DNA from: Aquiluna sp. KACHI24
GTDB taxonomy: Bacteria > Actinomycetota > Actinomycetes > Actinomycetales > Microbacteriaceae
Assembly: GCF_025997915.1 (NCBI RefSeq)
Contig: NZ_AP026677.1
Span: forward strand, 186,001 to 250,000
Direction of reading: 5' to 3'
DNA: 64,000 nt
A program made the translations under genes and the position numbers. Numbering within the stretch: the first letter of the stretch is position 1; each line of letters opens with the position of its first letter. This document shows positions 16,018 to 62,640 of this stretch, piece after piece. The notes under the pieces are model-generated. The model searched no databases. It had not been told where the DNA came from and saw only the letters and a program-made list of their open reading frames with translations.

Positions 16018-16051
16018 AAATCCCTCCTCCGGGCAACCGGGGGAGGGATTT
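16018..16051 (+). terminator. Intrinsic terminator of the binding-protein gene
   Basis: AAATCCCTCC-t-CCGG pairs with CCGG-g-GGAGGGATTT around GCAA, followed by CTT. Strong GC-rich hairpin 24 bp after the stop codon. Confidence 0.85.
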
Positions 16052-38648: not shown

Positions 38649-40450
38649 ACCTAAAGGGCACCAACAACGAGGAGCAGACAGATCTCTCCAAAGAGGAATC
38701 TCGCTACATCCGAGCCCGCTCACGCAAGCTTTTGTTTTCGATGCTCAGCCCCATGAAGCGAAGGCTGGGCCTGGCCGCGACTTTGGTTTTGTTCTCCACC
38801 GCGATGCGAGTTGCCGGACCGGCGCTAATCGCACTTGGCATCGACTGGGCCTTGCCCCAAGCTATCGAGGGTCGAACCGGATCACTGTGGTTGGTGGTTT
38901 CTGGTTACCTTTCCGCTGCACTGCTCTCAGCGGTCTTGGTCTATTACTTCTTGATGATCACCGCCAAGGTCTCGCAAAAGATGCTGTTCGAGCTGCGTAA
39001 TCGCATGTTTGTGCACACCCAAAAACTCTCCGTCGAGTTCCACGAGCGCTACACCGCCGGACGTGTGATTGCTCGTCAAACCTCGGACCTCGAGTCGATC
39101 AAGGAGCTTTTGGCCGGTGGCATGGGTCAGCTGGTAGTGGGGCTTTTGTTCATGCTCTTCACTGCTATCGCATTGCTACTGCTGGACCCGATTTCGTTCT
39201 TGGTGCTATTGGTTTCGCTGCTACCGCTCGGTATTTTGACCAGGTGGTTCCAGGTTCAAACCAATCTCGGTTATCGCAAGCAACGAGTCGCTTCAGCAAA
39301 ACTGATTCAGTACTTTGTCGAGACCATGACCGGTATTCGAGCAGTGAAGGCGTTCCGAAAGGAAAAACGCAACGAGCAGCACTTCGGTGGTTTGGTCGAG
39401 GATTACCGCGGCTACAACGCTCGCCTGATTCAGCTCTTCGGTATTTATGACCCTGGTCTAATCCTGATTGGAAACATCACGGTTGCCGCGGTGCTGTTGG
39501 TTGGTGGTCTGCGAGTCATTGAGGGTGATCTTGGAATTGGTGTTCTAACCGCAGCAATTTTGTATGCCAAGCGCTTCTTCGATCCGATGGAAGATATCGC
39601 CATCTTCTACAACTCTTACCAGTCGGCATCAAGCGCGCTTGAGAAGATCTCTGGGGTGCTGGAGGAAGAGCCTTCGGTACCAGAACCAAAGACTCCAATG
39701 TCACTCGAGAAGGCAAAGGGTGCAATCAACTTCCGCGGCGTTGAATTCAAATACAACACCGGCCCAGTGGTTTTGAAAAAGCTTGATCTCGAAATTCCTG
39801 CAGGTCAGACAATTGCCCTGGTCGGCACCACCGGAGCGGGCAAGTCGACGCTTGCCAAGCTAATCTCTCGCTTCTATGACCCAAGTGCCGGGCACGTTCA
39901 GATTGACGGTGTTGATCTCAGAGATGTTGCGAACACCGACCTCAGGCGCGAGGTGGTGATGGTGACTCAGGAGGCTTATCTCTTCTCCGGTTCAGTGGCA
40001 GACAACATCTTGCTGGGTCGTCCAGAAGCGAGCTTCGAAGATGTTGTTGCCGCCGCCAAGGCGGTGGGAGCAGATGAGTTCATTCGCTCACTACCTGATG
40101 GCTATGACACCGATGTGAATAAGCGCGGTGGCAGGGTTAGTGCAGGCCAAAGACAGCTGATTTCATTTGCCAGAGCATTCTTGGCCAACCCCGCTGTGCT
40201 GATTCTGGATGAGGCAACCAGTTCGTTGGACATCCCATCGGAGCGCATGGTGCAGCAGGGCTTGAAGACTCTTTTGGCAGGTAGAACCGCGATCATCATC
40301 GCTCACCGACTCTCCACTGTCTCGATCGCTGATCGAGTTCTGGTTATGGAGCACGGCGAGGTAATCGAAGATGGTTCACCAACGCAGCTGGCCTCAGGAA
40401 CCGGCAAGTTTGCCAAGCTATACAAGGCTTGGAAAGACTCCCTGGTCTAG
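38645..40450 (+). CDS. ABC exporter half, catalytic partner
   Basis: Partner of the preceding exporter gene, 601 aa with the same layout and a more polar N-terminus of about 30 residues. Walker [10 protein letters not shown] and Walker [12 protein letters not shown] with catalytic Glu523 are intact, but the signature is VSAGQRQ (498-504) instead of LSGGQ. In the heterodimer this altered signature would face the defective Walker B of the partner, leaving one canonical and one degenerate ATP site. GTG start. The stop overlaps the amylase stop on the other strand by 4 bp. Confidence 0.9.
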
Positions 40451-41865
40451 CCCTTGATAAGCGCGATAGCGCTCTTGGCTGGCAGGTTGGTCACGAACTT
40501 GCCTCCCGAAACCTCGTACTTCTCACCCGAGAGCACATCCAGGTATTCGCCATCCTTCAAGCTGGTTGCCATTTCGATGGCTGCCTCTTGAGTGCTGGAG
40601 ACATTCATGACAAACAGCGCCTTGTCGCCTCTTGAGAATCCAAAGCTGGAGTCAACCTGGTAAACCTGATCGACCGAGGTTCCGATGACTGCGGACCTGA
40701 ATTTCAGCATTGCCTTGGTTGATGCGAACCGGTGCTGACAAATCCACTCTCCGGGTGCATAGCCGTCCTTTACGGCGCTGTGGCCAGACTCGTCAACCTC
40801 GCAGCTGACATCGTCAACGCCTGCCTCAGTCTGATTGGGGCCATCGTCATGACCTGCGAAGGCGTAGGAGGAATAGAGCATCGGTTGACCATAGTTCTCG
40901 GCTAGCAGCAACATGGTCGCGAGTTCGAAATCGACCATGTTGTTGTAGTTGAGAGTCTTGCCGTTGCGCTCAGTGTCATGGTTTGACACGAATGAAACTG
41001 CGCTCTCACTCGGAACGTGACCGATGTAGCGAAGGTCCAAACCTTCGGGGACCATCATCTCCATCTCCATGTAGCTCTTGAGGGCGTGGGCGTAGGTGAA
41101 CTCCCAGGCGTCTCCAGAGCCCAGGTAATCCTCGGGCTGGATCGGCTCACCCGCTCCGCGAATAACCTCGTGGATGATCCTGGTTCCCGCTGGCAATTGG
41201 TCGACGATGGTCTGTAGGTCCTCAGCCGCCATGTGCTTTGCAGCATCAAAACGGAAGCCCTTGACTCCAAGAGAAATCAGGTCATTCAAGTAGGCGAGAA
41301 TTTTTTCCTGCACGTTTGGTCTTGATTGATCTAGGTCTGGTAGACCCAAGAGTTCGCAGGTTTGAACCTCAGCTTTATCCGAGTAGTTCTGGATTGAGTC
41401 GTCAAAGGTGAGGTTGCAATCGTGGAAGTCTTCGAGTGAGTAAAGACCGGGGTAGTCATACTTGGTGAACTCGGTGCCGGCGAAGCCAAAACCGTTGTTG
41501 TTGGCCATGTGGTTAATGACCGCGTCAGCAATGATGTCGACCCCGTTATCGCCGCAGGTCTTGACCATCTGAGCGAACTCTTCGCGGGTGCCAAAACGGC
41601 TCTCGAGCTGGTAGCTCACCGGTTGGTAGATAGTCCACCAGGTGTCTCCAAGAATGTGCTCCTGCGGGGGTGCGACCAATGCCCAATCAACGCCGATCTC
41701 GCCGAGGTACTCGCACTCGTTGGCCACCGAGTCCCAGTTATACATAAATAGCTGAACACCGACCTGATCAACATAACCCTCAGGTTGAGATTGCTGCGAG
41801 GAACAGCCGCTCAGAGCAAGTGCGGCAATGAGCAAACTGGCGATGGACTTCAATCTTGAGTGCAT
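40447..41865 (-). CDS. Alpha-amylase family (GH13) lipoprotein
   Basis: Secreted glycosidase acting on alpha-glucans, anchored outside. Signal peptide of 20 residues ends in LSGC with lipidated Cys21. GH13 regions are visible: DAVINHM (I), GFRFDAAKH with the nucleophile Asp (II), the EV of IIHEVIRG (III) and FVSNHDTER (IV). Length 472 aa, with a C-terminal beta-domain. Start at ATG 41865 is supported by a TAGCAT -10 seven nt upstream; an in-frame start at 41895 would precede that element. No sugar-uptake genes are adjacent. Confidence 0.9.
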
Positions 41866-41872
41866 GTTGGCA

Positions 41873-41878
41873 ATGCTA
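41873..41878 (-). promoter_or_regulatory. -10 element for leaderless amylase gene
   Basis: Minus-strand TAGCAT ends 7 nt before the ATG at 41865; no Shine-Dalgarno. Confidence 0.45.
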
Positions 41879-41937
41879 ACCGATAGGCTTAGCAAGGCTG
41901 TTTTAGCGCGTTTGGCGCCGAATATTTCAGGAGAATC

Positions 41938-43155
41938 ATGAGCAAAATCAAGGTGGTTGGCAAGGTCGTCGAACTAGACGGCGACGAGATGACCCGCATC
42001 ATCTGGCAGGACATCAAGGACAACCTAATCCTCCCCTTCCTAGACGTAGAACTTGAGTACTACGACCTATCGGTCGAGAACCGCGATGCAACCGATGACC
42101 AGGTAACCATCGACGCAGCACACGCAATCAAGCAGCACGGTGTTGGTGTGAAGTGCGCCACCATCACCCCAGACGAGGCTCGTGTTACCGAGTTTGGTTT
42201 GAAGAAGATGTGGAAGAGCCCAAACGGCACCATTCGTAACATCCTTGACGGAGTGGTTTTCCGCGAGCCAATCATCATCTCTAACGTGCCAAGACTCGTG
42301 CCTGGTTGGACTAAGCCAATCATCATCGGTCGTCACGCTCACGGTGACCAGTACAAGGCAACTGACTTCAAGGTTCCAGGCAAGGGCACTGTTACCATCA
42401 CCTGGACCCCAGCTGATGGTTCCGAGGGCCAGACTTGGACTGTTGCCGAGTACCCAGAACACGGTGGTGTTGCAATGGGTATGTACAACTACATGGATTC
42501 AATCCGTGACTTCGCTCGTGCCTCATTCAACTACGGCCTGGCTCGCAACTACCCGGTTTACATGTCAACCAAGAACACCATCTTGAAGGCCTACGACGGT
42601 GCGTTCAAGGACGCCTTCCAGGAGGTATTTGACGCCGAGTACAAGGACCGCTTTGCAGCCGCCGGTCTCACCTACGAGCATCGCCTGATCGATGACATGG
42701 TTGCCGCATCCCTAAAGTGGGAGGGTGGCTACGTCTGGGCCTGCAAGAACTACGACGGTGACGTACAGTCCGACACCGTTGCTCAGGGCTTTGGCTCCCT
42801 AGGCCTGATGACCTCGGTGCTCACCACTCCGGATGGCAAGACCGCTTTGGCCGAGGCAGCTCACGGCACCGTGACCCGTCATTACCGCGAGTGGCAGAAG
42901 GGCAACAAGACCTCGACCAACCCGATCGCATCGATCTTCGCTTGGACCCGAGGCCTAATGCACCGCGCCAAGCTTGATGGCACCCCAGAGGTTCAGCACT
43001 TTGCAGAGACCTTGGAGGATGTAATCATCAAGACTGTTGAGGCTGGTCACATGACCAAGGACCTTGCCGCACTGGTTGGCAAGCAGCAGGCTTGGCAGAC
43101 CACCGAGGAGTTCATGGCAACCCTCGCTCAGAACCTAAAGGCTCGTTTGGGCTAG
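41938..43155 (+). CDS. icd: Isocitrate dehydrogenase, NADP-dependent dimeric type
   Basis: Decarboxylates isocitrate to 2-oxoglutarate. The start [22 protein letters not shown], and blocks [17 protein letters not shown] and [10 protein letters not shown], are those of the eukaryote-like NADP homodimeric class, here 405 aa. ATG at 41938 with CAGGAGAATC. CTA-rich Leu usage suggests high expression. Followed by a strong terminator that contains the -10 of the next gene in its T-run. With sucCD and sdh it gives three TCA loci in this window. Confidence 0.95.
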
Positions 43156-43183
43156 TAAAACACGGGGCTTTTCAAGCCTGTGG

Positions 43184-43215
43184 AAAACCCCCTGCAGATT
43201 TCTGCAGGGGGTTTT
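43184..43215 (+). terminator. Intrinsic terminator of icd
   Basis: A 14-bp perfect stem, AAAACCCCCTGCAG (43184-43197) with CTGCAGGGGGTTTT (43202-43215), 4-nt loop. Confidence 0.92.
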
Positions 43216-43220
43216 ACTTT
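43215..43220 (+). promoter_or_regulatory. -10 element for leaderless glycine-rich protein gene
   Basis: TACTTT begins on the last base of the icd terminator and lies 6 nt before ATG 43227. Confidence 0.45.
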
Positions 43221-43226
43221 TTGCGC

Positions 43227-45434
43227 ATGAAAAAACTTCATGCCCTATTTGTTGCCTTACTTCCAATCGCCGCGCTCCCAGTGATGCCCGCTCAGGCCGC
43301 ACTGGAATGCGACAACGGCTTTTGTGTCCAGTCCTTCTACTACACCGGCACCCCTCAAGTTTTTGAGGTTCCCGATGGCATCGGAGCAATTCGCTACGAG
43401 ATCTATGGAGCCTCTGGAGCTCGCGGCGGAGCCGGAGCCTTAGCTCAGGGTTACCTGCAGAACCTGCCAGATCAGTTGATCATCCAAGTCGGCGGTGCTG
43501 GTGGCCTGGGAGCCAATCGACCCGGTGGATACAACGGAGGCGGTGCCTCGGGTGGATCAAGAAACAATGAGGGTGCAGGTGGCGGTGCGTCCGACATTCG
43601 TTTGGACTCCTCGCTCGAGAGTCGAATTGTTGTCGCCGGCGGCGGAGGAGGCGGCGGCGGTTTTGCCGGAGGTGCAGGTGGGGCCGGTGGCCTAGTCGGA
43701 TCCAACGGCACGGACGGCCAAGGCCTAGCTGGAAAGGGTGGTACCGCCTCTCAAGGCGGTGATGCTGGTGTGAACAACTCCTTCGGGGTCATGCCAACAT
43801 CTGGCCTATTCGGTGTTGGAGGAGCTGGTGGTTTCGGTCTTCACGCCGGAGGTGGCGGCGGTGGTGGCGGCTGGTACGGCGGTGGTGGCGGCGGCGGTGA
43901 CGACGATGAGACTGGGTCTGACGGCGGGGGCGGTGGTGGCGGATCGTCATACGCGCATCCCGATTACGTGACCAACTCAAGCTTCGAATCTGGTCTCAAC
44001 TGGGGGCATGGGCGAGTCATGCTCTACTACCAAATGGTTCCCTCAGTTCTAGCTTTCTCCGGTGCGCAAACCAATCTCACCGAGATGTCTTTCGACCTGG
44101 TCATGAACCAAAACATTCAAAACTTAAGTGTTGATGACTTTGAATTTGCCCTCGGAAGCTGCCAGGTAAACCGGGTTGCCATCAACCTAAACACCGCGAA
44201 CATCAGACTGCGCAATTGCTCTGGCGGAGACATTGGCTTGACGCTAAAGGCGGGTTCCGTTGGAGAGTGGGAGCTCGGTCCCCTCACCGCCCAAACTGCC
44301 TATGCGCACAATGACCTATTCGGTCCGACCCTGCGCATGACCCAGCCCTCCCAGCGCTACTCGGCTTCTGCAGTGGTAATCCCAATCACTTACTCCGAGT
44401 TGGTTCCGACCCTCGAATCTTTTAATCTGCCAGATTGTCAGGCCGAGCTAACCCTGGAGAACCTAATACTCAGTTCGTGCTCGGAAGGCGTGAAAACCGT
44501 CTCGGTGTTGGGCTCAGTTTCGAATGATTCCTGGGGCAATGTCGGACCTTCACTTCAAAGCGTCAGCTTTGAAGTGGACCTCACTCCGCCAACATTTAGT
44601 CACATCGCAACCTTTAGCGGCGTCACCACATTTAGCTACCAACTCATGCTGCAATTCAGCGAGACTGTCGAGATTGCACTTGACGCCATTAGCGTCTCGA
44701 GCAGCATGAGTTGCTCTCAGGAGGTGAATGCTCAAACCCAGCTGTGTGGTCATGGATCCTTGAGTTGGAGTGTGAACCTGGCTTTGATCACAGACCTAGT
44801 CGGTAACCCAGTTGGGGAGGGGTTGGTTCGATTTGACCTTGAGAACCCAGTCCCGGAACTAGAGTCGATTCCGAATACGCCAGCGCCGGAACCTGGGGCG
44901 GTGAACCCCACACCTGTGCCAGTTCAACCAGAACCTGTTGCACCGCCTGCAGAACCGCAGCCAACCGGCCCGGCGATTGTGATTGAACCAACACCTGAAC
45001 CAGCTCCTGCAACTGAATCAGGCAGCATTTCCCAAGCAGTCACCCAGTCTGAAGAGGTAACCGAATCAGAATCGGTGAAGGTCGAACCTGGTTCGGACTC
45101 AGAGGAAGTCGAGTTACCCGTTGTTGACTCAAGTGGTTCATGGGAGGAGTTTGAGTCAATTGAGGTGGCAGTGTTGCAGGAGCTTGAAGCTCCAAGCGAT
45201 CCCCTGAGGACAGCGCAATCCCAGCAAGCCATAGGCCATGTATCGGATGCGGACACAGAGATCGTCCCGTCAACTGCAACTCCTGCGGAGCCGGAGCCTC
45301 AGATTCAGACGGTAGTTTCAGGACCACAGTTGGAACTTCAGAAAGAGGGAAGTTGGCCCTGGCTTGAGGTGGCCATCGCAAGCTTGCTGCTTGGACTGAT
45401 TGGCTATGGTGCCTATCGAACTATCGGAAAATGA
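43227..45434 (+). CDS. Glycine-rich, Ig-like repeat surface protein
   Basis: A 735-aa exported protein. Signal peptide 1-24 (cut after AQA); a domain starting FEVPDGIGAIRYEIYGASG, then a long Gly-rich stretch (about 85-245) like the bacterial Gly_rich family; then three beta-rich modules of about 80 residues, the first two with a pair of Cys (Ig-like); a Pro/Glu/Ser-rich stalk (about 545-700); and a C-terminal membrane helix (about 710-728). Probably cell-surface, anchored by that helix, not by sortase. ATG 43227 has no Shine-Dalgarno. Role unknown: adhesion or envelope layer are guesses. The 3' end overlaps purU by 14 bp. Confidence 0.82.
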   Translation: MKKLHALFVALLPIAALPVMPAQAALECDNGFCVQSFYYTGTPQVFEVPDGIGAIRYEIYGASGARGGAGALAQGYLQNLPDQLIIQVGGAGGLGANRPGGYNGGGASGGSRNNEGAGGGASDIRLDSSLESRIVVAGGGGGGGGFAGGAGGAGGLVGSNGTDGQGLAGKGGTASQGGDAGVNNSFGVMPTSGLFGVGGAGGFGLHAGGGGGGGGWYGGGGGGGDDDETGSDGGGGGGGSSYAHPDYVTNSSFESGLNWGHGRVMLYYQMVPSVLAFSGAQTNLTEMSFDLVMNQNIQNLSVDDFEFALGSCQVNRVAINLNTANIRLRNCSGGDIGLTLKAGSVGEWELGPLTAQTAYAHNDLFGPTLRMTQPSQRYSASAVVIPITYSELVPTLESFNLPDCQAELTLENLILSSCSEGVKTVSVLGSVSNDSWGNVGPSLQSVSFEVDLTPPTFSHIATFSGVTTFSYQLMLQFSETVEIALDAISVSSSMSCSQEVNAQTQLCGHGSLSWSVNLALITDLVGNPVGEGLVRFDLENPVPELESIPNTPAPEPGAVNPTPVPVQPEPVAPPAEPQPTGPAIVIEPTPEPAPATESGSISQAVTQSEEVTESESVKVEPGSDSEEVELPVVDSSGSWEEFESIEVAVLQELEAPSDPLRTAQSQQAIGHVSDADTEIVPSTATPAEPEPQIQTVVSGPQLELQKEGSWPWLEVAIASLLLGLIGYGAYRTIGK

Positions 45435-56854: not shown

Positions 56855-57232
56855 TTACCAGAAAACAGCTAGCACTACGTTTAAGACAGCTAGAAGTCCA
56901 ATGGTTCCGAAGATTGGAGCCTTAACCGAATCCTTCTTCTTGTTCAGAAGAATTAGGACGAGTAGCACGATTAGGACCAGAGACTTAATGCCAATCTTCA
57001 TGTGGTTCAGTTCTGGCGCCCACTCCATCATCGCCATCCACTCACGAACACCAACTAGCAATAGTCCAGTGGCGAGCAGGGTCCATGCGCCATGAACCAT
57101 GGCTGGGACGATCTTTGCGGCTCCCTGAGCCATGGCCTTCATTTGAGTCATAAAGCCACCAAACACGGCGGCAAAACCGATGAAGTGCAAAACGATTAGT
57201 GAGTTGCGCACAATCTCAGCAGTTAGTTCCAT
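56855..57232 (-). CDS. Small four-helix membrane protein, unknown
   Basis: A 125-aa protein with four predicted membrane helices (about 7-27, 43-63, 75-95, 103-123) and few charged residues apart from the LLNKKKDSVK loop. I do not recognise a named family with confidence; similar small proteins recur in Microbacteriaceae. ATG with strong AAAGGAG. It follows ribH by 33 bp, which hold a perfect 17-bp palindrome just upstream of the Shine-Dalgarno, so its translation or transcription may be separately regulated. Confidence 0.75.
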   Translation of the reverse strand: MELTAEIVRNSLIVLHFIGFAAVFGGFMTQMKAMAQGAAKIVPAMVHGAWTLLATGLLLVGVREWMAMMEWAPELNHMKIGIKSLVLIVLLVLILLNKKKDSVKAPIFGTIGLLAVLNVVLAVFW

Positions 57233-57265: not shown

Positions 57266-57727
57266 CTAACTAATCAGAGAAAGCATGTGCAGTGCGGCCT
57301 GAACCGACTCAGCGCCCTTGTCTTCTTTTGAGCCTTCTAGACCAGCGCGCGCAATTGCCTGAGCTTCGTCGTCAACCGTGAGAAGACCGAAACCGATGGG
57401 CTTGCCATACTCCAGCTGAACCTGGGTTAGGCCTGTGGTTGCAGAGTCACAGACGTAGTCAAAGTGTGGGGTTTCTCCCTGAATCACAACGCCGAGAGCG
57501 ATTACCGCATCGGCTCCCTGATCAAAGGCCCACTTGGCAGCAAGTGGCAACTCGAATGCTCCTGGGACCTTGTGAACCTGAACATCCTCGGCGCCGGCCT
57601 TTTCTAGCTCCCGCATTGCGCCAAGAACCAAGCCATCCATGACACGGGTGTGCCAAGAGGTAGCTACTACATAAATCTTTTTTCCAGCAGCAGAAACCTC
57701 TAGCTGCGGTGCTCCAGAACCACTCAC
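57266..57727 (-). CDS. ribH: 6,7-dimethyl-8-ribityllumazine synthase
   Basis: Condenses the pyrimidine intermediate with dihydroxybutanone phosphate, the penultimate step of riboflavin synthesis. VVATSWHTRVMDGL, the KVPGAFELPLAAK block and the ALGVVIQGETPHFDYV loop with the active-site His are typical. Length of 153 aa is normal. Last gene of ribD-ribE-ribBA-ribH; its start overlaps the ribBA stop by one base. Confidence 0.95.
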   Translation of the reverse strand: MSGSGAPQLEVSAAGKKIYVVATSWHTRVMDGLVLGAMRELEKAGAEDVQVHKVPGAFELPLAAKWAFDQGADAVIALGVVIQGETPHFDYVCDSATTGLTQVQLEYGKPIGFGLLTVDDEAQAIARAGLEGSKEDKGAESVQAALHMLSLIS

Positions 57728-58959
57728 TACTTCAGATTAGCGGGAATCATGTGGCCCATGCGCTCGCGCTTGGCTTCAAGATACCCACGGTTCTGCTCGG
57801 CAAGGCCAACGATCAATGGCACTGTTTCGGTGACCTTGATGCCAGCCTCATCCAAGAAGGCACGCTTTGCCGGATTGTTAGTAAGTAGACGGACACTTCT
57901 GATGCCCATGTCCTTCAAGATTGCAACGGCTGCACCGTACTCACGAGCCTCCGATGGAAGCCCCAAAGCCAGGTTTGCATCGACAGTGTCCATGCCCTTC
58001 TCCTGAAGCGAGTAGGCCTTTAGTTTGTTCAGAAGCCCGATACCGCGACCTTCCTGGCCACGAAGGTAGATGACAACGCCACCCTCTTCATTGGCTTGGA
58101 TTGCCTCAAGGGCAGCGTCGAGCTGTGGACCACACTCACACTTGAGCGATCCAAAGGCTTCACCGGTGATGCACTCCGAGTGCATACGGATTAGAACATT
58201 CTCGCCAGTTGGCTTACCCGCGATAAGGGCAACGTGGTCAGCGGTGGTCTTTACGTCGTAGTAACCGCGAACAGTGAAGTCACCGTGAACGGTTGGAAGT
58301 AGGGTCTCGGCCTCAAGGCGGATGCGGTTCGCAGCCTGAGGCTCGGTGCCGCTGCGTTTGGACAAATGGTCCTTGAGGTGAGAAATAGTAGTCATAGGTA
58401 GGTTAAACCTCGTGGCAGTCTCAAATAATTCCGCCATCCGCATCATTGTTCCGTCGTCGTTAACCATCTCGGCCATCAAAGCCACTGGTTCAAGGCCGGC
58501 GAGCAACATCAAATCAACCGCTGCCTCGGTGTGGCCAGGACGAACTAGCACGCCACCATCTTTGGCGCGCAGCGGCAAAACGTGCCCGGGCCGAATCAAC
58601 GAAATCGGGGTTGAGGCTGGATCCGCTAGTACTCGACCGGTTAGCGCTCGGTCAGCAGCGGAGATGCCGGTTGAGAAACGATTGGCAGCATCAACACTCA
58701 CGGTGTAGGCGGTGTGATGTGGATCTTGCGAGTTGGGCCACATCAAAGGCAAGTCCAACTGATTGGCCCGTTCCTCGGTCATGGGAGCACAGATGTAACC
58801 GGAGGTGTGGCGAATCATCCAAGCCAACCACTCCTCGGTGGCAAACTGTGCGGCGATGATGGCATCGCCCTCGTTCTCGCGATCCTCGGCGTCCGAGACC
58901 AAGACTGGCTTGCCCGCTTTCAGTGCCTCCAGCACATCCTCAATTGGGCTTAGTTTCAT
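57727..58959 (-). CDS. ribBA: DHBP synthase / GTP cyclohydrolase II
   Basis: Bifunctional enzyme of riboflavin synthesis. The N-terminal half makes dihydroxybutanone phosphate (VSDAEDRENEGDAI, RPGHTEAAVDLM). The C-terminal half opens GTP, with zinc Cys residues in HSECITGEAFGSLKCECG and the RGQEGRGIGLLNK loop. Full length at 410 aa. Its ATG overlaps the ribE stop by 4 bp and it runs into ribH with a 1-bp overlap. Confidence 0.96.
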   Translation of the reverse strand: MKLSPIEDVLEALKAGKPVLVSDAEDRENEGDAIIAAQFATEEWLAWMIRHTSGYICAPMTEERANQLDLPLMWPNSQDPHHTAYTVSVDAANRFSTGISAADRALTGRVLADPASTPISLIRPGHVLPLRAKDGGVLVRPGHTEAAVDLMLLAGLEPVALMAEMVNDDGTMMRMAELFETATRFNLPMTTISHLKDHLSKRSGTEPQAANRIRLEAETLLPTVHGDFTVRGYYDVKTTADHVALIAGKPTGENVLIRMHSECITGEAFGSLKCECGPQLDAALEAIQANEEGGVVIYLRGQEGRGIGLLNKLKAYSLQEKGMDTVDANLALGLPSEAREYGAAVAILKDMGIRSVRLLTNNPAKRAFLDEAGIKVTETVPLIVGLAEQNRGYLEAKRERMGHMIPANLK

Positions 58960-59546
58960 TTGAATTCCAACAATCTCTCAATGTGCTTGGCCAAGATGTC
59001 GGCCTCCACGTTTACCTTGTCGCCCGGGTTTTTGTAACCGAGGGTGGTGATCTGCAGGGTCTCTGGAATCAGCGAGAGGCTGATTACATCGTCCTCAATT
59101 CCGTTCACGGTCAGTGATATTCCATCGAAGGTGATTGAGCCCTTCATCACCACATACTTCAGAAGTTCCCGCGGGACTCGGATCTTGACCCAGTCCCAGT
59201 TCTCGCTCTTCTCGCGAGATACGAATTCCCCAACACCATCAACGTGACCCTGCACGACGTGACCGCCGTATCGGGTTGCGGCACTCATTGCACGCTCCAG
59301 GTTGATTGGATCGCCGACCTTCACCTCAGAAAGCGAGGTGCGCTTTAGAGTCTCGAGCATCACATCTGCAGTGAAGGAGCGATCGTCAATCTCAATTGCG
59401 GTTAGGCAGGTACCGGAGCAGGCGATGGAGTCGCCGCGGCCAAGATCACTGAGTACCTTGCTGGCGCCGATGGTGAGTCGAATCGCGTCCGGCTGCTCTT
59501 CAATCGCCAACACCTTGCCCAGCTCTTCAATGATTCCTGTGAACAT
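58956..59546 (-). CDS. ribE: Riboflavin synthase alpha chain
   Basis: Dismutates two lumazines to riboflavin. The MFTGIIEELGKV start is diagnostic, and the two tandem lumazine-binding barrels each carry a GDSIACSG- or VVQGHVDGVG-type site. Length of 196 aa is normal. ATG starts immediately after the ribD stop. Operon position between ribD and ribBA is standard for actinomycetes. Confidence 0.95.
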   Translation of the reverse strand: MFTGIIEELGKVLAIEEQPDAIRLTIGASKVLSDLGRGDSIACSGTCLTAIEIDDRSFTADVMLETLKRTSLSEVKVGDPINLERAMSAATRYGGHVVQGHVDGVGEFVSREKSENWDWVKIRVPRELLKYVVMKGSITFDGISLTVNGIEDDVISLSLIPETLQITTLGYKNPGDKVNVEADILAKHIERLLEFK

Positions 59547-60575
59547 TTAGCTTCTCCTTGCAATTAGAAGTTGATCGTCACCAAGTAAGTGACGTTCGAA
59601 AATCTCTAGTCGGTGAGCATCTTGGATGCTCCCCACGCCGATGTCTCTCAGGGCTACTCGCTCTCCACCAAGCAGCACTGGAGCTAGGTAAATCAAGTAC
59701 TCGTCAACCAGGTTTAGCTGCTCAAATCGGCTCGCGACCTCTGGGCCACCCTCAATAAAAACGTGCTTTATGCCTCTGGCCCAGAGCTCTGCTAATGCGC
59801 CGTGTAGGTTTCGGGTTCTGAGGTGCAAAGTCTCAGCCCGGTCATTGAAAACCCGGGCTGAAAGCTCGATGTCGCGTTCTCCAAGGATCACTCGAAGAGG
59901 CTGGTGTTCGTAGTAGCTGCCATCGGGTTTTCTGGCGGTAAGTTCTGGATCATCTGCCAAAACAGTTCCGGTCCCAGCCAGGATTGCATCGGCATTGGAG
60001 CGACGCAAGTGAACATCGGCTCTGGCCTCAGGACCAGTAATCCATTGGCTAGTGCCATCGTTTGCTGCAGCTCGACCATCCAGTGAGGTTGCCCACTTCA
60101 AAGTGACAAAGGGGCGCTGTCTACGATTTGCGGTTAGCCAAACTCTGCTCTGCTGCTCGCTTTCCTGGGCCATGAAGCCACCCAATACCTCGACACCTGC
60201 ATCTCGAAGAGTTTGCGCTCCGTTGCTTGAAGCATCGCCTGGGTCACTCGCTGCGTAAACCACGCTGGAGATCCCCGCTTCAATCAGAGCCTGCGCACAA
60301 GGTCCGGTTCGGCCGGTGTGGTTGCAGGGCTCCAGGGTGACAACCGCGGTGAGTTTGGAGGTGAAGGGGTAGGGGAGTTTTGCCCGGAGGTTTTTGATGG
60401 CCATGACTTCGGCATGATCCGTCCCTGCTCCAAGGTGCCAACCCTCCGAGAGGATCTCGCCATTGGCAGCCATGATCACGGCTCCAACTTGAGGATTCAC
60501 CCCGTGTGCTGGTCCGCGTAGCGCAAGCTCCAGGGCTCTAGTCATGCCCTGTTTGAGTGCTTGCTCGTATAGCAA
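59547..60575 (-). CDS. ribD: Riboflavin deaminase/reductase
   Basis: Bifunctional pyrimidine deaminase and reductase. The zinc site is HAEVMAI and EPCNHTGRTGPC; the reductase has LKWATSLDGRAA and FIEGGPEVASRF. Two starts are possible. TTG at 60575 has an AGGGGA Shine-Dalgarno, but both lie in the 3' part of the riboswitch hairpin and T-run. ATG at 60545 (MTRALELALRG) is closer to the conserved N-terminus but has no Shine-Dalgarno. I favour TTG (342 aa). First gene of the rib operon. Confidence 0.93.
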   Translation of the reverse strand: MLYEQALKQGMTRALELALRGPAHGVNPQVGAVIMAANGEILSEGWHLGAGTDHAEVMAIKNLRAKLPYPFTSKLTAVVTLEPCNHTGRTGPCAQALIEAGISSVVYAASDPGDASSNGAQTLRDAGVEVLGGFMAQESEQQSRVWLTANRRQRPFVTLKWATSLDGRAAANDGTSQWITGPEARADVHLRRSNADAILAGTGTVLADDPELTARKPDGSYYEHQPLRVILGERDIELSARVFNDRAETLHLRTRNLHGALAELWARGIKHVFIEGGPEVASRFEQLNLVDEYLIYLAPVLLGGERVALRDIGVGSIQDAHRLEIFERHLLGDDQLLIARRS

Positions 60576-60614
60576 AAAGTCCCCTAACGGTTAGCTACAC
60601 AGCACCGCGGGGAC
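60574..60614 (-). promoter_or_regulatory. Riboswitch expression platform: hairpin covering the ribD start
   Basis: On the minus strand GTCCCC and CGGT pair with ACCG and GGGGAC, followed by TTTTT. The same 3' arm holds the AGGGGA Shine-Dalgarno, and the T-run runs into the TTG start of ribD. The hairpin can act as a terminator, a ribosome-site sequester, or both. Confidence 0.6.
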
Positions 60615-60646
60615 GCGAAAATAGAGGGCGTCGAGCACCCTGAGCT

Positions 60647-60782
60647 CTTCTCCCATCCGGACTATAACCGTCGGTTTCGGAATTTCACCGAATCAACCGC
60701 CTGAAGCTGCCCTGCTGGCTGCAAGGTCCTCAGTCGGGTCGCGGACTTTAACCGCCGGCTCAGATTTTCACTGACCCCGAAG
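60647..60782 (-). promoter_or_regulatory. FMN riboswitch (RFN element)
   Basis: Read on the minus strand, the region begins TTCGGGGTCAGTGAAA and ends TAGTCCGGATGGGAGAAGA, with conserved CCGGCGGT, AGTCCGCGACCC and CCGACGGT between them; these are the conserved RFN segments in the right order. FMN binding is expected to switch off the downstream rib genes. A possible -10, TATTGT, is at 60799-60804 on the minus strand. Confidence 0.95.

Positions 60783-60833: not shown

Positions 60834-62640
<1,807 letters not shown>

Follow-up and report, generated by a model that had tools for sequence, protein, structure and literature searches.

What is the expression platform between the flavin mononucleotide (FMN) aptamer and ribD in Aquiluna sp. 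KACHI24, and does its last hairpin, which runs into a stretch of T residues and a start codon, stop transcription, translation or both? The locus was studied in a stretch of 64,000 nucleotides (nt), hereafter the window (contig NZ_AP026677.1, positions 186,001 to 250,000; coordinates below count from the window's first letter), and was compared with its counterparts in 21 other genomes of the same genus, giving 22 genus members in all. Sequence and comparison together identify an aptamer, the operon behind it, a start codon (inferred from relatives) and a conserved predicted sequestor, and the element is probably an OFF-type FMN riboswitch before ribD-ribE-ribBA-ribH that acts mainly on translation, with a proposed strand exchange that would release the Shine-Dalgarno (SD) sequence of ribD without FMN. 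The parts on which this reading turns are the following.

60788-60641, minus strand: aptamer of the FMN riboswitch, or RFN element (99.2 bits against Rfam RF00050, E 9.1e-22, model positions 1-138 of 138)
60790-60775, minus strand: aptamer 5′ strand ACACAGTTCTTCGGGG (P1 5′ strand plus J1/2), the proposed anti-sequestor, from a search for duplex partners in the platform
60650-60643, minus strand: P1 3′ strand GAAGAGCT, from the Rfam alignment
60614-60579, minus strand: hairpin 2, predicted SD sequestor GTCCCC...GGGGAC, -18.5 kcal/mol, with the SD paired in 22/22 genus members
60585-60581, minus strand: SD sequence AGGGG, assigned by its pairing to the 16S tail encoded in this genome
60578-60574, minus strand: TTTTT extending into the start codon, present in none of the other 21 genus members
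59547-60575, minus strand: ribD, start TTG 60575-60573 (TIGR00326, 284.5 bits; start placed by comparison within the genus)

By its sequence the element is an FMN riboswitch of the ordinary kind. The match to RF00050 is full length and exceeds the gathering score of 66.2, the aptamer is present as a single copy in its genome (1.46 Mb, one contig), and it lies on the minus strand between trpS, which ends at 60834, and the riboflavin operon. The initial annotation, which had placed an FMN riboswitch here, was right about the element and short on its extent, the upper end that it gave (60782) falling six bases short of 60788. An FMN aptamer was detected at E 0.001 in 131/148 genomes searched, this one included. 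The 22 genus members were recovered by profile search; text searches keyed to where the aptamer ends missed eight of them in a strict form and three in a looser one. Loci (L numbers) with no aptamer match were dropped (L062, L079, L082, L084, L104 and L107; L131 is a sigma-factor locus), and duplicates were removed.

Where translation of ribD begins decides what hairpin 2 could hide. Past the last in-frame stop and before the conserved NPQVGA there are only three candidate starts, TTG 60575, ATG 60545 (60545-60543) and GTG 60500. All 21 other genus members have an ATG at the place matching 60575, 21–30 nt upstream of the ATG matching 60545 (for L016, in which the NPxVGA motif was not found, the start was set from its SD-ATG string). 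Pairing of the SD with the 16S tail, an exact match to which is present in the own genome (G000), is worth -7.5 kcal/mol before TTG 60575 as against -1.9 kcal/mol before ATG 60545, and lies between -6.8 and -9.6 kcal/mol before the corresponding ATG of the 21 relatives. In L021 the downstream and upstream ATGs score alike (-7.0 and -6.8 kcal/mol), so that there SD energy alone is not decisive. Because the relatives start with ATG at this place and a good SD stands before it, TTG 60575 is with high likelihood the ribD start, preferred over ATG 60545.

Hairpin 2 comprises fourteen pairs and two small bulges. Its arms are GTCCCC (60614-60609) and GGGGAC (60584-60579), followed by TTTTT (60578-60574) and G (60573); with the T-run it folds at -19.9 kcal/mol, a value matched by 2/1000 mononucleotide shuffles. 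In single-sequence folds, a method leaning towards pairing, the GGG of the SD was paired within hairpin 2 in 22/22 genus members (one of the three G was unpaired in L111). The pairs that follow the GGG vary in type: the first was G-C in 15 members, T-A in five and C-G in two, with both sides matching, and the second was T-A in 11, C-G in five, G-C in one and unpaired in five. A MAFFT alignment of 17 platforms misaligned hairpin 2 (for example in L005, L009 and L017) and was excluded from these counts. Such changes of pair type back the hairpin, yet they are not independent events, because the folds are of single sequences and the members fall into about ten related groups. The comparison identifies hairpin 2 as a conserved translational sequestor predicted to hide the ribD SD. 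Much of what the initial annotation had read from the letters thus holds: the 3′ arm is the SD of ribD, the T-run follows GGGGAC directly and ends in TTG, this TTG stands where all 21 relatives have their start ATG, and the SD before ATG 60545 is a poor one.

How the sequestor might be coupled to the aptamer is suggested by a second complementarity. With FMN bound, P1 (60786-60779 with 60650-60643) would be stable and hairpin 2 would form, burying the AGGGG of the TTG 60575 start; without FMN, the freed 5′ strand ACACAGTTCTTCGGGG would pair with CCCCGCGGTGCTGTGT, taking away the 5′ arm of hairpin 2, the aptamer 3′ strand could pair with the U-rich linker, and the SD arm would be set free. In 22/22 genus members the best duplex that the aptamer 5′ strand can form in the platform is with the 5′ arm and loop of hairpin 2, starting 33–44 nt before the start codon, and in the window this duplex is worth -26.9 kcal/mol, with 0/200 shuffles as good. 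The word CTGTG is found in the loop region of hairpin 2 in 18/22 members and CACAG in the leader of 21/22; the four without CTGTG (L003, L004, L005 and L009) are still partly complementary at this position. When the window sequence was folded, the probability that the SD lies in hairpin 2 was 0.00 free and 0.99 with P1 enforced, and that of the 5′ strand being paired to the platform was 0.83 free and 0.00 with P1 enforced.

Several results weigh against this exchange, or against its generality. The duplex energy was matched by ≤5% of shuffles in 7/22 members and not so in the other 15. Full exchange in equilibrium folding was confined to the window: 17/22 members keep hairpin 2 at ≥0.7 both with and without P1 enforced, three (L111, L028 and L112) shift partly but without the proposed pairing, and in L113 the proposed pairing forms in part (0.63 free, 0.40 once P1 is enforced) and hairpin 2 in neither state. 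Even in the P1-free ensemble of the window the SD is unpaired with a probability of only 0.02, being held in another, local structure. Folds with enforced pairs, made for 8/22 members, included one (L009) in which no anti-sequestor pair could be enforced, so that its third fold equals the unconstrained one. Pairing of the aptamer 3′ strand with the linker is weak against shuffles, the aptamer 5′ strand hardly varies and so offers little covariation, and the 22 members include many close relatives, the ten or so groups having been drawn by eye. Since equilibrium exchange was seen in the window alone, FMN-dependent strand exchange with an anti-sequestor, which is proposed here from the complementarity, must, if real, be governed in most members by the order in which the RNA folds as it is transcribed.

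Between P1 and hairpin 2 lies a further hairpin, absent from the initial annotation, and with it the alternative that survives best.

60641-60625, minus strand: hairpin 1, AGGGTG-CTCGA-CGCCCT, terminator-like, -8.1 kcal/mol, matched by 27/1000 mononucleotide shuffles
60624-60615, minus strand: U-rich tail of hairpin 1, CTATTTTCGC, read from the sequence

Hairpin 1 adjoins P1, ranked first (most G-C pairs) of 14 terminator-like sites between 44 and 64 kb, and is present in 22/22 genus members. Five T or more among the ten bases behind hairpin 1 were found in 17/22 members compared with 0/89 platforms outside the genus by the same finder (from 99 distinct outside platforms, 10 without a ribD motif within 700 nt were removed), and in 18/22 by a second finder; L003, L004, L005 and L009 have no U-run. 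Pooled over the 22 members, the tails (220 bases) are T-rich and A-poor, with T 117, C 64, G 27 and A 12. On sequence grounds hairpin 1 is a candidate for a transcriptional gate at least as good as hairpin 2, and two gates in series can be imagined, hairpin 1 and its tail acting as an FMN-modulated terminator or pause and hairpin 2 as a translational gate behind it. The P1-free fold of the window, in which a different pairing takes the place of hairpin 1, as expected of an anti-terminator, speaks for this arrangement, but hairpin 1 was still present without P1 in seven of the eight members folded, which argues for no general anti-terminator and leaves one possible in the window. The tail, moreover, pairs in folds with the purine-rich P1 3′ strand, a complementarity weak against shuffles that could explain its U-richness without termination; shuffles do not separate this role from that of a terminator or pause. 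Nor do the four members without a U-run favour such a gate, and terminators of this kind show no sign of heavy use nearby: terminator-like sites numbered 23, 21 and 14 in three scanned stretches, against 18.4, 20.7 and 20.1 in shuffles, or 58 found to about 59 expected in the 60 of 64 kb scanned (all but 40001-44000), although a few strong stems do occur (16018-16051 and 845-871). Two gates in series are accordingly a tentative and somewhat unlikely arrangement. Extra transcriptional control beside the favoured translational switch, if there is any, would more likely come from hairpin 1, or, by analogy, from Rho acting on untranslated RNA, than from hairpin 2.

The initial annotation had suggested that one structure, hairpin 2, could stop transcription as well as translation. 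In the form specific to this species, hairpin 2 and TTTTT would be a true intrinsic terminator and a sequestor at once, transcription stopping near 60574 and, failing that, translation being blocked. The layout is there: the ribosome-binding site lies in the 3′ arm, the stem (-18.5 kcal/mol, much stronger than the -8.1 kcal/mol of hairpin 1) is directly followed by five T, and a dual class of this description is already in print (PMC2258182). A cleaner version stands before ribD in L013 and L014, which belong to a different family within the order, where CCTCCC...GGGAGG-TTTTTT-C-ATG forms a hairpin of -16.5 kcal/mol with the SD within its 3′ arm, the T-run lies 110 nt after the aptamer, and a 300-codon frame is RibD-like by motifs; CCTCCC, the 5′ arm, has a second complement in a GGGAGG of the aptamer itself. 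In two more genomes of that genus the SD may, judged by eye, lie in a hairpin, with TTCTT behind it in L157 and no T-run in L162.

Set against this, the T-run after hairpin 2 was found in 1/22 genus members. Among 212 platforms distinct after duplicate removal, a ribD start could be called in 173 (by a rough purine score, so that single starts may err), and within positions -14 to +3 of these, homopolymers of five or more bases numbered three for T, one each for A and C and none for G. The three T-runs are those of the window, L013 and L014, the latter two being species of one genus, and hence represent two lineages. Start-site T-runs are thus indistinguishable from chance level; on occasion the spacer after a sequestor hairpin has turned into a T-run, with or without selection for it. 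An automatic filter passed five hairpin/T-run sites, of which two were set aside by eye: in L002 the site is hairpin 1, and ribD does not start at the GTG behind it, while in L027 there are four T before another reading frame that is not RibD-like. With the T-run missing from all 21 relatives and runs at starts at chance level, hairpin 2 was rejected as a conserved terminator. That terminator-like sites are not enriched in the 60 kb scanned also speaks against a terminator in this species. By comparison of sequences the T-run is a change in this species, for which a dual terminator and sequestor, a known kind of device, is possible, albeit unlikely and not supported by its relatives.

A genus-specific double exchange goes further. 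Loss of FMN would hand over both P1 strands, the 5′ strand to the arm and loop of hairpin 2, opening the SD, and the 3′ strand to the U-rich tail of hairpin 1, removing its U-tract; transcriptional and translational gates would stand in series, and the second T-run of the window would be starting to make the sequestor a terminator. It draws on the same two complementarities, that of the 3′ strand being the weak one, and must be considered quite improbable. Least credible of all is a ribD start at ATG 60545, which would put hairpin 2 well upstream of the ribosome site and therefore oblige the switch to act on transcription: this ATG is kept in the 21 members whose frame was read and in L016, and alignments to TIGR00326 and to solved structures of RibD begin at residues 9–11 of the TTG reading, in which ATG 60545 is residue 11, but the first aligned residue of a profile is no evidence on a start codon, and the candidate was rejected on its SD energy and on the relatives' starts 21–30 nt further up with good SDs.

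Upstream of the aptamer, the leaders share one more conserved element.

60826-60798, minus strand: conserved motif GGAAT-N17-TATTGTT, probable promoter (GGAAT-N17-TATTGT in 22/22 genus leaders, TATTGTT in 21)

The pattern GGAAT-N17-TATTGT has one match in the whole genome, and a reversed control pattern has none. A scan of 44–64 kb for promoter-like sites returned sigma-70 type matches only, none of them at the ribD leader. Some leaders from the same family (L037, L115 and L116) read GGGAAT-N18-GTT, which resembles the SigH/SigR promoter consensus, and the genome itself encodes a SigH_actino protein (269 bits, L131). The motif is probably a promoter, of extracytoplasmic function (ECF)/SigH-like type by consensus. 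Because PMC4510997 reports SigH dependence for the riboflavin operon of Corynebacterium glutamicum, a stress-type promoter may, by analogy, be joined to the FMN riboswitch here.

The remaining genes of the operon and their assignments are as follows.

58956-59546, minus strand: ribE, riboflavin synthase (NF006767, 234.9 bits)
57727-58959, minus strand: ribBA (TIGR00505 and TIGR00506, both above cut-off)
57266-57727, minus strand: ribH, lumazine synthase (TIGR00114, 128.5 bits)

After ribH, a protein of 125 amino acids (56855-57232) with hydrophobic stretches by eye had no match in NCBIfam, the library searched. The closest named relative of ribD was that of a Rhodoluna metagenome-assembled genome (MAG; L031, 68% identity), records very near the window possibly lying outside the search, and the next were nearly all Microbacteriaceae by title, a pattern that puts the genome in this family, probably in or near Rhodoluna.

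Outside the genus, platforms are built differently. A CCCGG or CCCCG word, which can pair with the aptamer 3′ strand TCCGGATGGG, was found in 79/89 outside platforms (dinucleotide shuffles: mean 43.7, highest 52) compared with 3/22 within the genus, and CGG fell within three bases of the called start in 48/89; a CCCGG-type box is a likely common sequestor design in the order. In L036 (MAG Rhodoluna sp. Ww21) the ATG of a RibD-like frame stands, by eye, a few bases after the purine-rich aptamer end GAAGAAAGAAAC; there appears to be no room for an expression platform, a layout as in direct translation attenuation. The output part of the riboswitch thus changes freely while the sensor stays fixed: one order carries the same aptamer with varied platforms, namely a CCCGG-type box, a two-hairpin platform in one genus, and a T-run spacer after the sequestor in two separate lineages. 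This variation opens to experiment the question of whether a sequestor can become a terminator through point changes in a free spacer. No Rhodoluna or Microbacteriaceae FMN platform was named in open-access titles or abstract starts, a set in which subscription journals are mostly outside, and this is a weak sign that such platforms are unreported.

Among known systems, the translational sequestor type of RF00050 shares with this locus the aptamer, the target operon and an SD-hiding hairpin after the aptamer; what sets the platform of this genus apart is a pair of hairpins, a linker rich in U and the box CCCGCGGTnCTGTG, which can pair with the 5′ strand of the aptamer. A 2015 study by Pedrolli reportedly concerns the FMN riboswitch of Escherichia coli ribB. 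That riboswitch joins translation control to a transcriptional effect, but its transcriptional arm is Rho, as cited in PMC5234074. For C. glutamicum, PMC4510997 describes control by the FMN riboswitch as involving Rho and RNase E/G; the riboswitch there (Takemoto 2014, 2015, as cited in that paper) is also actinobacterial, but it regulates the transporter gene ribM, the riboflavin operon being the one said to be SigH-dependent, whereas here the riboswitch precedes the riboflavin operon itself. Barrick and Breaker (2007, PMC2258182) describe translation attenuation as commonest outside Firmicutes and define 'dual transcription and translation attenuation' as an arrangement in which a terminator adjoining the gene carries the ribosome-binding site on its 3′ side. 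Such dual platforms and the window have in common the ribosome-binding site in the 3′ side of a hairpin and a T-run next to the start codon; here, however, a single species in the genus has the T-run, which supplies the start codon with its first bases, and the terminator activity is putative. Switches of the kind proposed are classed under strand exchange in PMC10907184.
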